From IMG/VR virus record IMGVR_UViG_3300043450_000168, positions 1-26,056 of that record: a DNA stretch of 26,056 nucleotides. One strand, 5' to 3'. The position numbers were made by a program, and so were the translations under genes. Source of the stretch: a virus. Position 1 is the first letter of the stretch. Each line of letters starts with the position of its first letter. The notes beneath the pieces were generated by a model. It had not been told where the DNA came from, made no database searches, and saw nothing but the letters and a program-made list of their open reading frames with translations. This document shows positions 4,071 to 17,630 of this stretch, piece after piece.

Positions 4071-5093
4071 ATGTTGCCATCGGATATTAGAAGTTTGCAA
4101 GAAGCATACCAAAGTATTTACGAAGAATCAGATTTGTTAACTGATGATTTGATTGAAGAAATTGTAGAAGAACTTGTAGAAGAATGTTTAGAGTTCGGAT
4201 ATGATCTTGATGAGTCTGCTGATGCAGTAGAGGCAGCAGCAATTCTTTATATTGATGAGGCAAAAGTGACTTATGGTAGTGATACGATAAGTCCCGAAGA
4301 TAGACGTGCTGAAGCTAAGGCTAGACTTAGTGATAGAAAAACATCGGCAAGAAAGGCGGCAGTAAAGGGTGCTGTAGATCGTGTAAAATCGACGGCAAAG
4401 GGGGTTAAGGCTGCTGCTGGAATCGCAGGGTCAATTGCCAAGGATGAGGTCAGGAGAGCAGGTCGTACTGCTTCCCAGGCCGTTCAGAAGAAGAAGGCAG
4501 AGGTCAAGGGTGGTATCAAAAAGATGATTGGTGGAGGTCTCCGTGCTGCTGCTGGTGGTCTCGGTAAGATCGCTCAGAGGGCAGCAGGGGCAGCATCAAA
4601 ATTTGGTGAAGAAGTTGAACTTGGTGAAAATAGAAGAATGGCAAGAGATCCAGAAGGACGTAAATCTGGCCATTCTAAGCAACCAGATCCTTCCAAACCT
4701 GGATTTACTGGTATTGGCAATATGAGTATTGCTCAAATTGCTAAGATGAGTGCCAAGATTGGAAAAGATAAAAAGCAAAATGAAGAAGTAGAAATCTATG
4801 ATGTTGTTCTTGAGTACTTGATGTCTGAAGGACATGCTGATACAATTGCTGAGGCAGAATACATTATGACTGAACTCGATAGTGAAATAGTAGATCAAAT
4901 TCTTGAAACTCGTATGGATCCAAGAGGTCGTCCTGCTTCTGGTCCTATGAATGTTTATGCAAAATCAAAACCAAATACAGATCCTGCTTTCCAAGCTGCT
5001 TTAAAGTCGTATAGAGAAAAAGAAGCAAAGAAAACTCCAGAGCAAAGAAAGGCAGAACTTGATGCTTATAAAGCAAGGCAAATGAACCGATAA
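4071..5093 (+). CDS. Lys/Ala-rich late protein, probable virion or internal protein
   Basis: 340 residues, function not recognised. The N-terminus (SLQEAYQSIYEE) begins an acidic helical domain to about residue 65. A long basic lysine/alanine-rich stretch follows (about 75-180), looking like amphipathic helices with glycine-alanine repeats. A second acidic domain lies around 235-275 (YDVVLEYLMSEGHADTIAEAEYIM), then a basic proline/lysine tail. The alternation of acidic helical modules and a polybasic centre resembles internal or scaffold-type phage proteins, and the exact late promoter just upstream supports late, structural expression. No catalytic motif is visible. A virion role is inference; DNA binding through the basic centre is also possible. 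No clear Shine-Dalgarno precedes the ATG. Confidence 0.72.
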   Translation: MLPSDIRSLQEAYQSIYEESDLLTDDLIEEIVEELVEECLEFGYDLDESADAVEAAAILYIDEAKVTYGSDTISPEDRRAEAKARLSDRKTSARKAAVKGAVDRVKSTAKGVKAAAGIAGSIAKDEVRRAGRTASQAVQKKKAEVKGGIKKMIGGGLRAAAGGLGKIAQRAAGAASKFGEEVELGENRRMARDPEGRKSGHSKQPDPSKPGFTGIGNMSIAQIAKMSAKIGKDKKQNEEVEIYDVVLEYLMSEGHADTIAEAEYIMTELDSEIVDQILETRMDPRGRPASGPMNVYAKSKPNTDPAFQAALKSYREKEAKKTPEQRKAELDAYKARQMNR

Positions 5094-11424: not shown

Positions 11425-11619
11425 ATGTCAGAAACAGTACAACAACTCACAGATGCAGTTGCAGCGTGGCAAGTTGAAGATGAAAAGTTTGTTGCAGGCA
11501 ATAGTGCTGCAGGAACTCGTGCTCGTAAAGCACTTCAAGAAGTTGCTAAACTTGTAAAGGCACGTCGTAACGAAATTACTGCTGAAAAGACTGCTCGTAA
11601 AGAAGCAGCAGCAGGTTGA
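11425..11619 (+). CDS. Hc1 histone H1-like DNA-binding protein
   Basis: 64 residues. The core FVAGNSAAGTRARKALQEVAKLVKARRNEI matches the Hc1 (chlamydial histone H1-like) pattern, in which a helix with spaced Arg and Lys contacts DNA; the C-terminus is a short Lys/Ala/Arg tail. Proteins of this type compact DNA, and a late-type promoter upstream fits a job in condensing or packaging phage DNA or in altering the host nucleoid late in infection. The stop is followed by a weak hairpin. Family assignment is by remembered pattern; a role in this phage is inference. Confidence 0.72.
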   Translation: MSETVQQLTDAVAAWQVEDEKFVAGNSAAGTRARKALQEVAKLVKARRNEITAEKTARKEAAAG

Positions 11620-12303: not shown

Positions 12304-12332
12304 TTGACATAATATTCGTTATGTCTTATACT
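12304..12332 (+). promoter_or_regulatory. sigma-70 promoter with embedded dyad
   Basis: TTGACA at 12304-12309, 17-base spacer, TATACT at 12327-12332. A perfect inverted repeat GACATAA/TTATGTC (12306-12325) spans the -35 and the spacer, a placement typical of operators. It drives the unassigned RNA and tRNA-Gly. Confidence 0.78.
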
Positions 12333-12430
12333 TCACAAGTCCGTGTGAAGGAAGTGCTGAGAGTGATGCCAAAAGTAAGGCACCCCGACAAGGGATACAG
12401 TAGAAGGATGCGAAACCTTCCACTCTCACA
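12331..12430 (+). ncRNA. multibranched small RNA of unknown class, upstream of tRNA-Gly
   Basis: Starts at the predicted transcription start. A hairpin CTTCACA/TGTGAAG with loop AGTCCG (12331-12350) is followed by a 71-base element closed by a perfect 8-bp stem TGAGAGTG/CACTCTCA (12358-12428). That stem encloses three helices: TGCC/GGCA, CCC/GGG and GAAGG/CCTTC, the last with loop ATGCGAAA that resembles a T-loop. The size and layout resemble a tRNA, but there is no regular anticodon arm and the D-loop lacks GG. It could be a riboswitch-like or manA/wcaG-type phage RNA, or a decayed tRNA. Helices are seen; the class is unknown. Confidence 0.6.
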
Positions 12431-12432
12431 TT

Positions 12433-12504
12433 GCGAAATTAATTCAGCGGTAGAATGTCTGCCTTCCAAGCAGAACGTCAGGAGTTCGAATCTCCTATTT
12501 CGCT
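12433..12504 (+). tRNA. tRNA-Gly(TCC)
   Basis: Acceptor GCGAAAT/ATTTCGC, anticodon stem TCTGC/GCAGA with loop CTTCCAA giving TCC, T-arm AGGAGTTCGAATCTCCT. CCA is not encoded. Probably cut from the same transcript as the multibranched RNA three bases upstream. Confidence 0.95.
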
Positions 12505-12506
12505 TC

Positions 12507-12521
12507 CCCAAATTTTTTGGG
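12507..12521 (+). other. short hairpin after tRNA-Gly
   Basis: CCCAAA/TTTGGG with a TTT loop. No T tract follows, so it is at best a weak terminator, and transcription may run on into the porin gene. Confidence 0.35.
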
Positions 12522-12564
12522 ACTACTAAATAATCCTCGTAGTTGTAAATCTTAATACAATCTT

Positions 12565-14052
12565 ATGAAATTTTTCAAACAACTGATGCTTGCACCTGTT
12601 GCTCTTGGAATGATTGCACCTGCCGCACAAGCAGCAGACCTTAATTTGGCAGCAGTCAACCAATATGCTTCGGCAGAACAGGTCACAAGTGTTACACAAT
12701 TCTCTGATGTAAAACCTACCGATTGGGCATATCAGGCACTCACCAACTTAGTAACTCGTTATGGTTGCGTTGCAGGATACCCTAATGGTACTTTTGCAGG
12801 TGGGAAAGCAATGACTCGTTTTGAGGCAGCGGCACTTCTGAATGCCTGTCTTGATCGTGTCACTGAAACAACTGATGAACTTCGTAAACTTCTTACTGAG
12901 TTTGATACGGAACTGACTGTATTGACTGCTCGTGTAGATGGACTTACCAGCAAAGTTGGTCAACTTCAAGCAACTCAATTCTCCACTACTACCAAACTGA
13001 AAGGTGAGGCAAGTATGGTTCTGGGTGGAGTTCCTGGACTTAGGACTACTACTGGTACAGAGTCTGGTAATACTGCATTTAACTATGACCTTCGTATCAA
13101 CTTTGATACATCGTTCAGTGGTAAAGATTTGCTGCGTACTCGTTTGCGTTCTGGTAACTTCTCCAGTCAACCTTTTGGTTCTTCTTCGTCACTGCTCAAA
13201 CTTGATAAGGCAGAAACCTCACAAGGAACTGGAACCAGTAGTAATGTCTGGTTGGATCGTCTCTATTACACCTTCCCTGTTGGTAAGAATGTAAAACTGA
13301 CTGCTGGTGCTCTGGTTCGTAATACAGAGATGGCATGGATTGCTTCGGCATATAAGTCTGACATTCTTGACTTCTTCCAACTTGGTGGTACTTCAGGTGT
13401 CTATAACAAGGCAACTGGTGCCGGTTTTGGTGCTCAATACACTCAACCAGGAACACAAGGTGTGGTTGCTAACCTGAACTATGTTGCAGAGAATGGTTCT
13501 GATAGTTCTACTGGTACTTTTGATTCCAGTGGTAAACTGAACCTGCTTGCTCAGGTTGGTTACCGTGCTCCTCAGTTCGGTGTTGCCGTTGGTTACCGTT
13601 ATGGTACTGAAGGTTCACGAGTTCGCAACTTCAATGCTCTTGGTGGTGGATCTGCTGCTCTTGTTAGTGGTCAAGATTCCAGCAGTGTAGCATTCAATGC
13701 TTACTGGCAACCTAAGACCTCTGGTATCGTTCCTTCAATCACTTTTGGTTATGGATATAATGGTATCAATGGTACTGGTAAGGCAACTGGAGCAACCAAC
13801 TCACAATCTTGGATGACTGGTCTTCAGTGGTCTGATGTGTTTGCTAAGGGTAACGTTGCTGGTGTTGCTGTTGGTCAACCTTCCAACTCTGAGAATGCTA
13901 ACAAGGCAACTCTGGTTGAATTCTTCTACAAGTATCAGGTTAGTAACAATATTGCAGTTACTCCTGCTATCTTCTATGTTTCAGACAACCAAGGTGCTCA
14001 AAATGCCTCCTCTAACTGGGGTGGTGTAATTCAGACAACCTTCCGTTTCTGA
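12565..14052 (+). CDS. cyanobacterial-type SLH-domain outer-membrane porin
   Basis: 495 residues with all parts of a host porin. A signal peptide ends at AQA (residue 23). An SLH domain covers about 44-98 (FSDVKPTDWAYQALTNLV, RYGCVAGYPNGTFAGG, MTRFEAAALLNACLDRV) and would bind the cell-wall polymer. A coiled coil spans about 101-137 (ELRKLLTEFDTELTVL). Then comes a 350-residue beta-barrel of alternating strands ending in the outer-membrane signature TFRF. This is the architecture of cyanobacterial SomA/OprB-type porins, which pass ions and small solutes. It looks intact, so it may be inserted in the host outer membrane during infection. No clear promoter or ribosome site precedes it; read-through from tRNA-Gly is likely. 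Acquisition from a host is inference. Confidence 0.92.
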   Translation: MKFFKQLMLAPVALGMIAPAAQAADLNLAAVNQYASAEQVTSVTQFSDVKPTDWAYQALTNLVTRYGCVAGYPNGTFAGGKAMTRFEAAALLNACLDRVTETTDELRKLLTEFDTELTVLTARVDGLTSKVGQLQATQFSTTTKLKGEASMVLGGVPGLRTTTGTESGNTAFNYDLRINFDTSFSGKDLLRTRLRSGNFSSQPFGSSSSLLKLDKAETSQGTGTSSNVWLDRLYYTFPVGKNVKLTAGALVRNTEMAWIASAYKSDILDFFQLGGTSGVYNKATGAGFGAQYTQPGTQGVVANLNYVAENGSDSSTGTFDSSGKLNLLAQVGYRAPQFGVAVGYRYGTEGSRVRNFNALGGGSAALVSGQDSSSVAFNAYWQPKTSGIVPSITFGYGYNGINGTGKATGATNSQSWMTGLQWSDVFAKGNVAGVAVGQPSNSENANKATLVEFFYKYQVSNNIAVTPAIFYVSDNQGAQNASSNWGGVIQTTFRF

Positions 14053-14058
14053 TAATTC

Positions 14059-14433
14059 ATGAAGAAACTGATCAAGTATTGGAAACACAGACCTATAACT
14101 CGTCAAGAGTGGATTGATCTGTATGTCTCATATTTGAGAAGGATACCGGAGAGGCAATACTTTCCAATCTTTGTATTGCTCTCTCTGTATTTTGTAGTTC
14201 CGTATAGTGAGTTTGTAGTCACTGCATTCATACCACTATACTTTCTTTTTGAGAAACAGGTTCGTTGGTTTTTTAGTAAAATACCAATGCCAGACTATTT
14301 AAGAATAGGTGGATCAGTTATTTTCTTTTTGGTCATGATTGATGACTACCTATTCTACTTTGCTATCATGGCATTTGCTGTCTGGAGTGCAAAGCAGATT
14401 AAGAAAACTAACGAATCTGATTTGTTGGACTAG
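14059..14433 (+). CDS. small polytopic membrane protein, unknown function
   Basis: 124 residues with three or so hydrophobic segments (YFPIFVLLSLYFVVPY, FVVTAFIPLYFLFE, GGSVIFFLVMIDDYLFYFAIMAFAVW), a basic N-terminus and a charged tail. It begins six bases after the porin stop, so the two are probably co-transcribed. A terminator follows at once. No family is recognised. Being paired with a porin, it may act in the envelope, for example on uptake or exclusion; that is inference only. Confidence 0.65.
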   Translation: MKKLIKYWKHRPITRQEWIDLYVSYLRRIPERQYFPIFVLLSLYFVVPYSEFVVTAFIPLYFLFEKQVRWFFSKIPMPDYLRIGGSVIFFLVMIDDYLFYFAIMAFAVWSAKQIKKTNESDLLD

Positions 14434-14486: not shown

Positions 14487-14642
14487 ATGTCACTTATTTC
14501 ACAGCAAGATAGAGTACTTGTAATTAAGGCTTTGGAACATTATGCATCTTCATTTAAAGATGTTATGACAGAAGCAGAGAGAGCAGAATCAAATGCCCTT
14601 CTTAACTGGATCAAACTTGAGTATAATAAAAATGAATATTAA
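14487..14642 (+). CDS. 51-residue protein, unknown function
   Basis: Short frame starting MSLISQQDRVLVIKALEHYA, with GGAG upstream of the ATG and a promoter 20 bases before it. The product is helical and amphipathic, with an acidic middle and NALLNWIKLEY at the end. It overlaps the next gene by 11 bases. Short enough to be missed by standard cut-offs; the promoter, ribosome site and coupling support it as real. Confidence 0.6.
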   Translation: MSLISQQDRVLVIKALEHYASSFKDVMTEAERAESNALLNWIKLEYNKNEY

Positions 14643-14796
14643 ACTTTGGTATTGTGACTCAATGAAACAATGGCGTTGGACATTGGCAGATTGTTCTCGT
14701 CCAATCATCAAGCAAGAATCTGGACAAAGACCAAATTTGAGAGATGCTATGAATGATGTTGCAAATACTGTTGAGTATATGTTAGAATCTCATTAA
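14632..14796 (+). CDS. 54-residue protein, unknown function
   Basis: From the ATG at 14632 (MNIKLWYCDSMKQWRWTL), inside the end of the previous gene; a longer in-frame start reads back through that gene and is less likely. It is rich in Trp in its first third, then NLRDAMNDVANTVEYMLESH, a likely helix. It resembles small early proteins of cyanophages that bind host partners, but no function can be read from it. Confidence 0.58.
   Translation: MNIKLWYCDSMKQWRWTLADCSRPIIKQESGQRPNLRDAMNDVANTVEYMLESH
14759..14788 (+). promoter_or_regulatory. possible sigma-70 promoter for tRNA-Val
   Basis: TTGCAA at 14759-14764 and TAGAAT at 14783-14788 with an 18-base spacer, inside the end of the preceding gene and 15 bases before tRNA-Val. 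The match is moderate. Confidence 0.35.
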
Positions 14797-14905: not shown

Positions 14906-15340
14906 ATGGATAAACTTTATAAACTTATAAGTGATACCCAGGCATCACTTTTTTTGCTATTCCAAAAAACCTGGGTCTATCACTGGCATATTGTGGGACC
15001 AGACTTTAAACAAATCCACGATTTGTTTGGAGACCAATACGTAGAAATTCAAGAAGAAGTTGACCGTATCTCAGAACATATGAGATTTTTGGGCATCAAA
15101 CCAATTAGTTCTTTATCAAGAGTTGTAGAAGTTTCTGGTGTTGGAGAAGCAAAGACTAATATTTCTGAAATGGAAATGATTAAAGATTTGCTTGAGGGTC
15201 ATAAAAAGATTATAGATATGTTAGGTGAAGTTGCCGAAGAAGCAGAAGCACAAAAATCAAGAGGAACTGTTAACCTTGTTGATGATTTAAACGAAGCACA
15301 TGGTAAGTTCGTTTGGATGTTACGTTCATTTACTGAATAA
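14906..15340 (+). CDS. Dps-like ferritin-family protein
   Basis: 144 residues, a four-helix Dps-type chain. Family Dps proteins form 12-subunit shells that oxidise and store iron and protect DNA. The signature YHWHIVGPDFKQIHDLFGDQYVEIQEEVDRISEHMRFLG (about 25-63) carries four of the five usual inter-subunit ferroxidase residues: H26, H38, D53 and E57. The fifth site, normally Asp or Glu four residues after the second His, is Gly42, with Asp43 next to it. The N-terminus is short, without the Lys-rich tail that binds DNA in E. coli Dps. An exact late promoter suggests late expression, possibly as a virion component or as iron/oxidative protection late in infection. The fold call is firm; activity is uncertain. 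Confidence 0.85.
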   Translation: MDKLYKLISDTQASLFLLFQKTWVYHWHIVGPDFKQIHDLFGDQYVEIQEEVDRISEHMRFLGIKPISSLSRVVEVSGVGEAKTNISEMEMIKDLLEGHKKIIDMLGEVAEEAEAQKSRGTVNLVDDLNEAHGKFVWMLRSFTE

Positions 15341-16369: not shown

Positions 16370-16563
16370 GGTCAATAGTCACGGAGAGACTTAAAAAGTA
16401 CTGGTCGGGACCCCCTGGAAGTCACGGATGGACTCAAACAGAACTGGTGGAGTCATACGACCCTATTATGAGTTTACAATCTCTCTCAAGGATTGTTGGT
16501 GCGGATGGGACTCTCTCCCGCCTGGTTTCCAATTTCCAGTTAAAGAATTGGTGGCGAGCCTGA
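16366..16563 (+). CDS. small protein, unknown function
   Basis: 65 residues beginning MRSIVTERLKKYWSGPPGSH, ending NFQLKNWWRA, starting in an ATGA overlap with the previous gene. Base composition is higher in G and C than in the two genes before it. Codon choice is less clearly phage-like, so it is the least certain of the three, but the overlap and the terminator straight after it support it. Confidence 0.5.
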   Translation: MRSIVTERLKKYWSGPPGSHGWTQTELVESYDPIMSLQSLSRIVGADGTLSRLVSNFQLKNWWRA

Positions 16564-16570
16564 AAGACCT

Positions 16571-16600
16571 AAAGGAGAGTTGCATAAACTCTCCTTTTTT
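16571..16600 (+). terminator. terminator before the glycan cluster
   Basis: Perfect 11-bp stem AAAGGAGAGTT/AACTCTCCTTT with loop GCATA and T tract. The loop holds most of the -35 box of the next promoter. Confidence 0.92.
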
Positions 16601-16608
16601 GGTATAAT
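16580..16608 (+). promoter_or_regulatory. sigma-70 promoter of the glycan cluster, -35 in the terminator loop
   Basis: TTGCAT at 16580-16585, 17-base spacer made of the terminator's 3' arm, consensus TATAAT at 16603-16608, 20 bases before the gmd ATG. Likely promoter of the sugar genes. Confidence 0.78.
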
Positions 16609-16628
16609 GGTACAAAGAACTTTATGAT

Positions 16629-17630
16629 ATGAAAGTTGCATTAATTACTGGTATTACTGGGCAAGATGGTTCTTATCTTGCAGAATTGCTTTTAGAAAAA
16701 GGATATGAAGTACATGGAATCGTCAGACGATCCTCCCTTATCAATACTCACCGAATTGATGGGATTTATGATCGTCTTAGTCTTCACTATGGTGATCTTA
16801 CTGATTCTACTAACCTAGTTAGGGTTATTCAAAAAGTTCAACCAGATGAGATTTATAATCTTGGTGCCCAGAGTCATGTGAAGGTATCCTTTGAGATGCC
16901 TGAATACACTGCTGATGTCGATGCTGTAGGAACTCTTAGGGTTCTTGAAGCAGTCCGTCTCCTGGGCATGGAAGACCGTGTAAGGATCTACCAGGCGTCT
17001 ACAAGCGAACTCTATGGATTAGTTCAGGAAACCCCACAGAAGGAGGCAACACCCTTCTACCCACGTTCTCCCTATGGTGTAGCGAAACTCTACGGATACT
17101 GGATCACAAAGAACTATCGTGAGGCATATGGAATGTATGCTTGTACTGGTATTCTTTTCAATCACGAATCTCCCCGTCGTGGTGAGACCTTTGTGACCCG
17201 TAAGATTACTCAGGCACTTTCTAAGATTTCAGTTGGACTTCAGGATTGTTTGTATCTGGGTAACTTGAATGCTAAAAGGGATTGGGGTCATGCTAAAGAT
17301 TTTGTAGAAGCAATGTGGTTAATGCTTCAACAGAATGAACCTGATGATTATGTGGTTGCTACTGGAACTCAATACTCTGTAAAAGATTTTGTCGAAGAAG
17401 CAGCACCATATTTTGGTATGAAGATTGCTTGGGAAGGTGAAGGGTTGGGTGAAGTTGGTATTGATAAACTTACTAAAAAGGTGGTCATTCGAGTCGATCC
17501 TAAATATTTTAGACCTGCTGAAGTAGAGACTTTGTTAGGTGATGCCTCTAAGGCAAAGGAAAAACTGGGTTGGGAACCTAAGATTTCTTTTAAACAATTA
17601 GTTGAGGATATGTGCATTTATGGACAGTGA
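16629..17630 (+). CDS. gmd: GDP-mannose 4,6-dehydratase
   Basis: 333 residues, an extended SDR enzyme that turns GDP-D-mannose into GDP-4-keto-6-deoxy-D-mannose with bound NADP. Visible: the TGITGQDG dinucleotide loop (7-14), the RRSS...HR NADP 2'-phosphate region, T125/E127 in QASTSELYG, catalytic Y149 and K153 (SPYGVAK), [16 protein letters not shown] and [11 protein letters not shown]. It is slightly shorter than bacterial Gmd but complete. It is the first gene behind the promoter at 16580. Its base composition is clearly richer in G+C than the genes after it. Its product is the shared substrate of the next two enzymes. The 3' end overlaps the next start by 11 bases. Confidence 0.96.

Follow-up and report, generated by a model that had tools for sequence, protein, structure and literature searches.

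An intact gene for an outer-membrane porin of the SLH-OprB type, 495 amino acids long, lies at 12565-14052 on the + strand of a cyanophage contig, in a genome position that related phages fill either with the same kind of pore, predicted to have 16 strands, or with an unlike barrel predicted to have 8. The contig, hereafter the window, is a 26,056-base IMG/VR virus record that also carries genes of T4-like and cyanophage type, among them nrdA, nrdB and many cyanophage PHROGs, and seven tRNAs. The reading we favor, at a probability of just under one half (about 0.48), is that the protein is a phage-made outer-membrane tether, which would replace host proteins during infection and, in the window's lineage, would conduct as well. 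Computed support for this reading comes from the domain anatomy, the predicted 16-strand fold, purifying selection, the invariant SLH residues and the sharing of the slot with an 8-strand alternative.

The reading frame of the porin is uninterrupted and ends in TFRF. Read directly by eye, residues 1-24 (12565-12636, +) form a predicted signal peptide, MKFFKQLMLAPVALGMIAPAAQA/AD, which is conserved in relatives. It is followed by an SLH domain at residues 46-89 (12700-12831, +; Pfam PF00395, E=2.9e-10, above gathering score), which contains the ligand residues W54 and TRFE 84-87, and by an OprB match over residues 101-495 (PF04966, E=2.2e-10, likewise above gathering score). The AlphaFold2 model, built on 72 viral sequences and of moderate confidence (mean pLDDT 63), places a long helix or coiled-coil stalk at residues 85-138 (12817-12978, +) and 16 strands at 142-494, and the predicted barrel spans residues 142-495 (12988-14049, +). 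With this model as query, Foldseek returned Pseudomonas OprB first and Veillonella OmpM1 within the top 20, and the VIA-align comparison with OprB gave Z 24.9 and an rmsd of 3.2 over 308 residues. The protein matches NCBIfam NF033921 (por_somb, SomB/'iron uptake porin') over profile positions 1-485 of 485 with 279 bits, where the curated cut-off is 100 bits, and it has the SLH-then-OprB order required of that subfamily; a PHROG search of the window genes gave no match for it. The 16-stranded fold behind a coiled-coil stalk that marks OmpM-type proteins is present in the moderate-confidence model. Judged by profile and predicted fold, the window porin is an OmpM/SomB-type outer-membrane protein; the family name suggests ion or iron transport, without establishing a substrate. 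The first-pass annotation had described an intact SLH-domain porin with signal peptide, coil and barrel in a single frame, and that description holds.

Relatives of the porin are encoded by 308 viral stretches in IMG/VR under one pattern set; a looser, SLH-based set gave at least 562, a number that may include the small-barrel class described below. Among the 82 porin loci fetched (80 from IMG/VR, one genome-collection contig and the isolate S-SRM01), the gene is unbroken in 79 of the 79 that span it, at 489-509 amino acids, the other three being cut by contig ends. Pairwise dN/dS is 0.19-0.29 (about 0.2), and by this measure the porin is under purifying selection. Conservation peaks in the SLH domain and the first strands. 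Outer loops L1, L4, L6, L7 and L8 are variable, and L3 (residues 253-283; 13321-13413, +) is the most conserved, being nearly invariant among relatives; because of this, we infer that the channel is kept in use, with L3 as its constriction loop.

The only isolate with this porin type is S-SRM01, at 66% identity. GenBank labels its protein just 'porin', the S-SRM01 genome paper (PMC8557907) does not mention it, and the open-access literature, to which the search was confined (subscription papers lay outside its scope), yielded no article that deals with an SLH porin in a cyanophage. Six phage records, which represent S-SRM01, S-CREM1 and S-PM2, encode an SLH barrel of one kind or the other; the small membrane gene beside the window porin, by contrast, is common to 161 cyanophage records. 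The presence in most cyanomyovirus isolates that is expected of a T4-like cyanophage core gene was not found, in agreement with the earlier impression that this is not a standard cyanomyovirus gene. The protein search also confirmed a host-type porin in a T4-like cyanophage, but not as a lone case, given its many relatives in IMG/VR and the annotated protein of S-SRM01. In a tree of viral and cyanobacterial plasmid porins, the viral sequences form one clade against eleven plasmid porins (support 100/100). This tree, from which the likely host genera Synechococcus and Cyanobium are absent, points to neither a donor nor a number of captures. A Scytonema porin used as query returned no viral relatives, hence no second viral porin lineage at that sensitivity. 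A scan of genome-collection contigs gave one match (L082), from a Microbacteriaceae MAG contig; its porin falls inside the viral clade, and it is probably a cyanophage contig in the wrong bin. Locus L051 (record G009) contains two intact SLH porins that differ from each other and are separated by about 15 kb (62675-64165 and 77478-78953), the sole two-porin case among 32 long records.

The SLH part of the window porin also matches S-PM2p168 ('putative S-layer protein', 279 amino acids) and the S-CREM1 'iron uptake porin' UYA57656.1 (292 amino acids). Similarity to this family, which is encoded by 361 viral stretches, is limited to the SLH and coil, and the window porin does not have the family's 8-strand barrel; conversely, the domain search gave no OprB match in the barrel of the small-barrel class. 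The small-barrel model has 8 strands and resembles OmpW and OmpA (Z 14-15), with a moderate pLDDT of 65 that is better in the barrel region. The SLH Trp and Arg are invariant in 72/72 porins and 56/56 small barrels, and the porins retain all of W54, G79, T84, R85 and E87 (72 of 72). A chimeric origin, with barrels swapped behind one shared SLH, was considered and rejected because the SLH tree keeps the porin and small-barrel classes apart; whole-gene replacement is thus likelier than barrel exchange. The S-PM2 'S-layer protein' was described in 2010 as early and abundant, and the protective role proposed for it is unproven (PMC2984593); this statement on expression is taken from a review and applies to the small-barrel class, not the porin.

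The two classes share a position in the genome. A tRNA end lies within 250 bases upstream in 41/75 porin loci and 44/74 small-barrel loci, and the nearest such tRNA is tRNA-Gly(tcc) in 38 of the 41 and 42 of the 44, respectively. In the window this upstream border is at 12433-12504 (+). The downstream border common to both classes is the phrog_2818 gene (14593-14796, +), and phrog_2818, Dps, phrog_8074 and two further small genes flank both classes on that side. A small protein matching histone H1-like Hc1 (PF07432, E=5.8e-15) is encoded at 11425-11619 and is found near the slot in other loci too. Directly behind the window porin, after a 6-base gap, is the small membrane protein gene (phrog_1248; 14059-14433, +), so that the porin does lie between the tRNAs and this gene, as first noted. 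In S-PM2, a 6-base gap likewise separates the SLH barrel gene from S-PM2p169, whose product is 74% identical to that of the window's membrane gene, and in two further small-barrel loci the gene stands directly behind the barrel gene (85-87% identity). The proposed link between porin and membrane gene is local: among loci with enough flank, the gene occurs within 4.5 kb in 2/48 porin loci and 1/51 small-barrel loci. A conserved operon of the two was dropped on the former count. The 32 long records, the longest of 258 kb, divide into 14 with the porin and 18 with the small barrel, and none has both; no formal probability is attached to this mutual exclusion, as the records were picked by matches to either class. 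Although common, the slot is not used in every phage: the S-CREM1 copy sits elsewhere, by MoxR ATPase and clamp genes.

The control region is also shared, and in both classes the order from tRNA to start codon is hairpin, TAAATA late-type motif and leader. The window hairpin (12506-12521, +) lies between tRNA-Gly and the late-type motif; its stem is maintained among relatives with varying sequence, stems of at least 5 pairs being present in 30 of 37 distinct leaders vs 6 expected from shuffles. The late-type promoter motif CTAAATA (12526-12532, +; cyanophage consensus NATAAATA) is followed by the slot-specific leader GTAGTTGTAAATCTTAA (12539-12555, +), which leader comparison showed to be common to both barrel classes. 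In the form GTAGTTRTAWWWCTTAA, the leader occurs 28 times before porins and 27 times before small barrels, and is absent elsewhere on both strands of the 1.9 Mb searched. The promoter scan found no -35 box close to the late-type motif of the window porin. The late motif coincides in part with an early-type site in 16 porin leaders and 12 small-barrel leaders; a combination of early and late promoters has been described for cyanophage genes (PMC2984593). A sequence scan also found, at 12304-12332 (+) and upstream of the tRNA-Gly unit, a strong sigma-70-like promoter (TTGACA-17-TATACT), from which early read-through into the porin is possible.

Several RNA features were noted in and around these regions. 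The sigma-70-like promoter at 12304-12332 belongs to a conserved, structured and unannotated RNA-like element at 12333-12432, between tRNA-Thr and tRNA-Gly, which is about 90-94% identical across many porin loci and has no Rfam match in the window. An ORF at 12321-12533 overlaps tRNA-Gly and was not accepted as a gene. The wcaG RNA (RF01761) precedes the small-barrel gene in 8 of 16 loci tested, ending 108-211 bases before the start codon; these are L086 (S-PM2, RNA at 4691-4790, with tRNA-Gly intervening before the gene), L091, L094-L098 and L114. It was not found directly before the porin in the window or in eight porin loci tested. As wcaG RNAs have been associated with genes for exopolysaccharides and for high-light conditions (PMC2864571), their position before small barrels points to the cell surface. 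In the window, a wcaG RNA (16468-16629, 100.7 bits) stands just before the GDP-mannose 4,6-dehydratase gene that opens a sugar-nucleotide cluster reaching the window end. Two of the cyanophage contigs also contain tRNA-Sec matches (L096, 10607-10692; L098, 10419-10504; 49 bits, gathering score 47), which may represent an unusual long-arm tRNA.

It is tentatively proposed, with odds a little short of even, that these loci represent an exchangeable outer-membrane slot, in which a leader behind tRNA-Gly precedes an SLH tether joined to either a pore of 16 strands or a barrel of 8, in many cases with Dps nearby, as part of an envelope take-over programme. As far as could be found, the literature searched does not describe a slot of this kind, where a single leader precedes either type of barrel and Dps is a neighbor. 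The porin itself belongs to a known host family, and its setting is recorded in GenBank and not discussed in that literature.

The steps that follow, from export and membrane insertion to wall binding, their timing and the envelope take-over, are inferred. After export, the 16-stranded barrel would insert into the host outer membrane, and the SLH domain on its coiled-coil stalk would bind pyruvylated polysaccharide linked to peptidoglycan. The phage protein would then stand in for the host's own SLH proteins of the outer membrane when the host ceases to express its genes, such that the envelope would remain attached and its surface phage-made until lysis; in the window's lineage, the barrel would double as a small-solute channel. 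Solved SLH complexes show sugar and pyruvate held by the Trp and by the Arg of the TRAE motif (PMC10628300), and in Synechocystis, SLH outer-membrane proteins hold less firmly and the outer membrane detaches when pyruvylation is suppressed (PMC9163127); wall binding by the phage SLH domain is predicted from its ligand residues. A phage-made tether is favored because both classes keep the signal peptide, SLH, coil, barrel and control region. As one slot holds two mutually exclusive barrel types, the constant part appears to be the SLH tether and a barrel, not the pore size, in structure models of moderate confidence for both proteins. Among the roles suggested in the first-pass annotation, a link between envelope layers through the SLH domain agrees with this shared, invariant part, whereas nutrient entry is weakened as a general role because related phages have a small barrel instead of a pore.

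An import module is an unlikely but not negligible alternative. Here the porin would let more inorganic ions, chiefly iron, enter the infected cell, and the neighboring Dps would store or detoxify iron. The conserved L3 and the Dps neighbor fit this role equally well. The Dps-type ferritin gene of the window (14906-15340, +; PF00210, E=1.1e-21, with PDB Dps matches) has the ferroxidase residues, as do 64/64 phage copies (H-H-D-E). Dps lies within 4.5 kb downstream in 28/48 porin loci with enough flank and anywhere in 10/14 long records with a porin. It is common in IMG/VR cyanophage contigs, and the one cyanophage isolate that bears it, S-SRM01, is also the one with this porin. The family carries the name 'iron uptake porin', and a Synechocystis porin does carry inorganic iron (PMC9705863). 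However, SomA/SomB permeability is low, an Anabaena study found no iron link, and a family name is no proof of substrate. Dps also accompanies the small-barrel class, in 18/51 loci and 9/18 long records (two of the nine being weak matches), although the 8-strand barrel that fills the slot there lacks a wide pore, and Dps may instead protect phage DNA from oxidants that photosynthesis generates.

Slightly less probable, in our estimation, is superinfection exclusion, in which the phage barrel would displace or mask a host porin or surface sugar used as a receptor by related phages. A surface role of this sort would agree with the presence of two dissimilar barrels in one slot, with the protective role proposed for the S-PM2 protein (PMC2984593) and with the variable outer loops of the porin. 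Variable outer loops are, however, usual in porins, masking would not need a strongly conserved L3, and no receptor is known for these phages. A functionless gene recently picked up from a host, or an assembly error that joined host DNA to a virus contig, could account for the GC of the porin (0.44 vs 0.37 for the window), although its GC3 of 0.30 is phage-like. This reading is considered refuted and its probability slight: the gene is unbroken in every spanning relative and under purifying selection, has its own leader, is present in the isolate S-SRM01 and belongs to one viral clade apart from the available cyanobacterial porins.

The phage-made tether thus remains the favored reading. Host-derived genes of cyanophages are mostly discussed as metabolic helpers, and the gene described here would instead supply numerous phages with a structural, wall-tethered outer-membrane protein whose barrel varies between phages as the tether, leader and genome position stay constant. 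If this is correct, control of the host envelope is a selected phage function in its own right, and the 'S-layer protein' of S-PM2 gains a meaning. Isolates carrying each type exist, namely S-SRM01 for the pore and S-PM2 for the small barrel.

Comparison with known systems places the window porin closest to that of S-SRM01 (QPX48248.1), which belongs to the same family, with identity extending over the full length, and has the same neighbors, with lysin and histone-like genes before the porin and Dps after it. Unlike in the window, the small membrane gene does not come after the S-SRM01 porin, which is annotated by name alone. S-PM2p168 and S-CREM1 UYA57656.1 resemble the window porin in signal peptide, SLH and coil, and S-PM2p168 also in having tRNA-Gly and the leader in front and the membrane gene behind; they differ in their length of 279-292 amino acids, the lack of an OprB match and a predicted 8-strand OmpW/OmpA-like barrel. 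Cyanobacterial SomA/SomB (NF033921) share the entire domain order, with a full-length profile match. The plasmid-borne cyanobacterial SLH-OprB porins are about 30-40% identical to the viral ones, which are shorter (about 495 vs about 550 amino acids) and form a separate clade in a tree that does not include Synechococcus/Cyanobium. Finally, OmpM1 of Veillonella parvula (8bym, 8bys) has the same combination of SLH, coiled-coil stalk and 16-strand porin and has been shown to act as both tether and channel (PMC10628300); OmpM1 binds polyaminated peptidoglycan, whereas the phage SLH domain has the W and TRFE residues associated with pyruvylated polymer.
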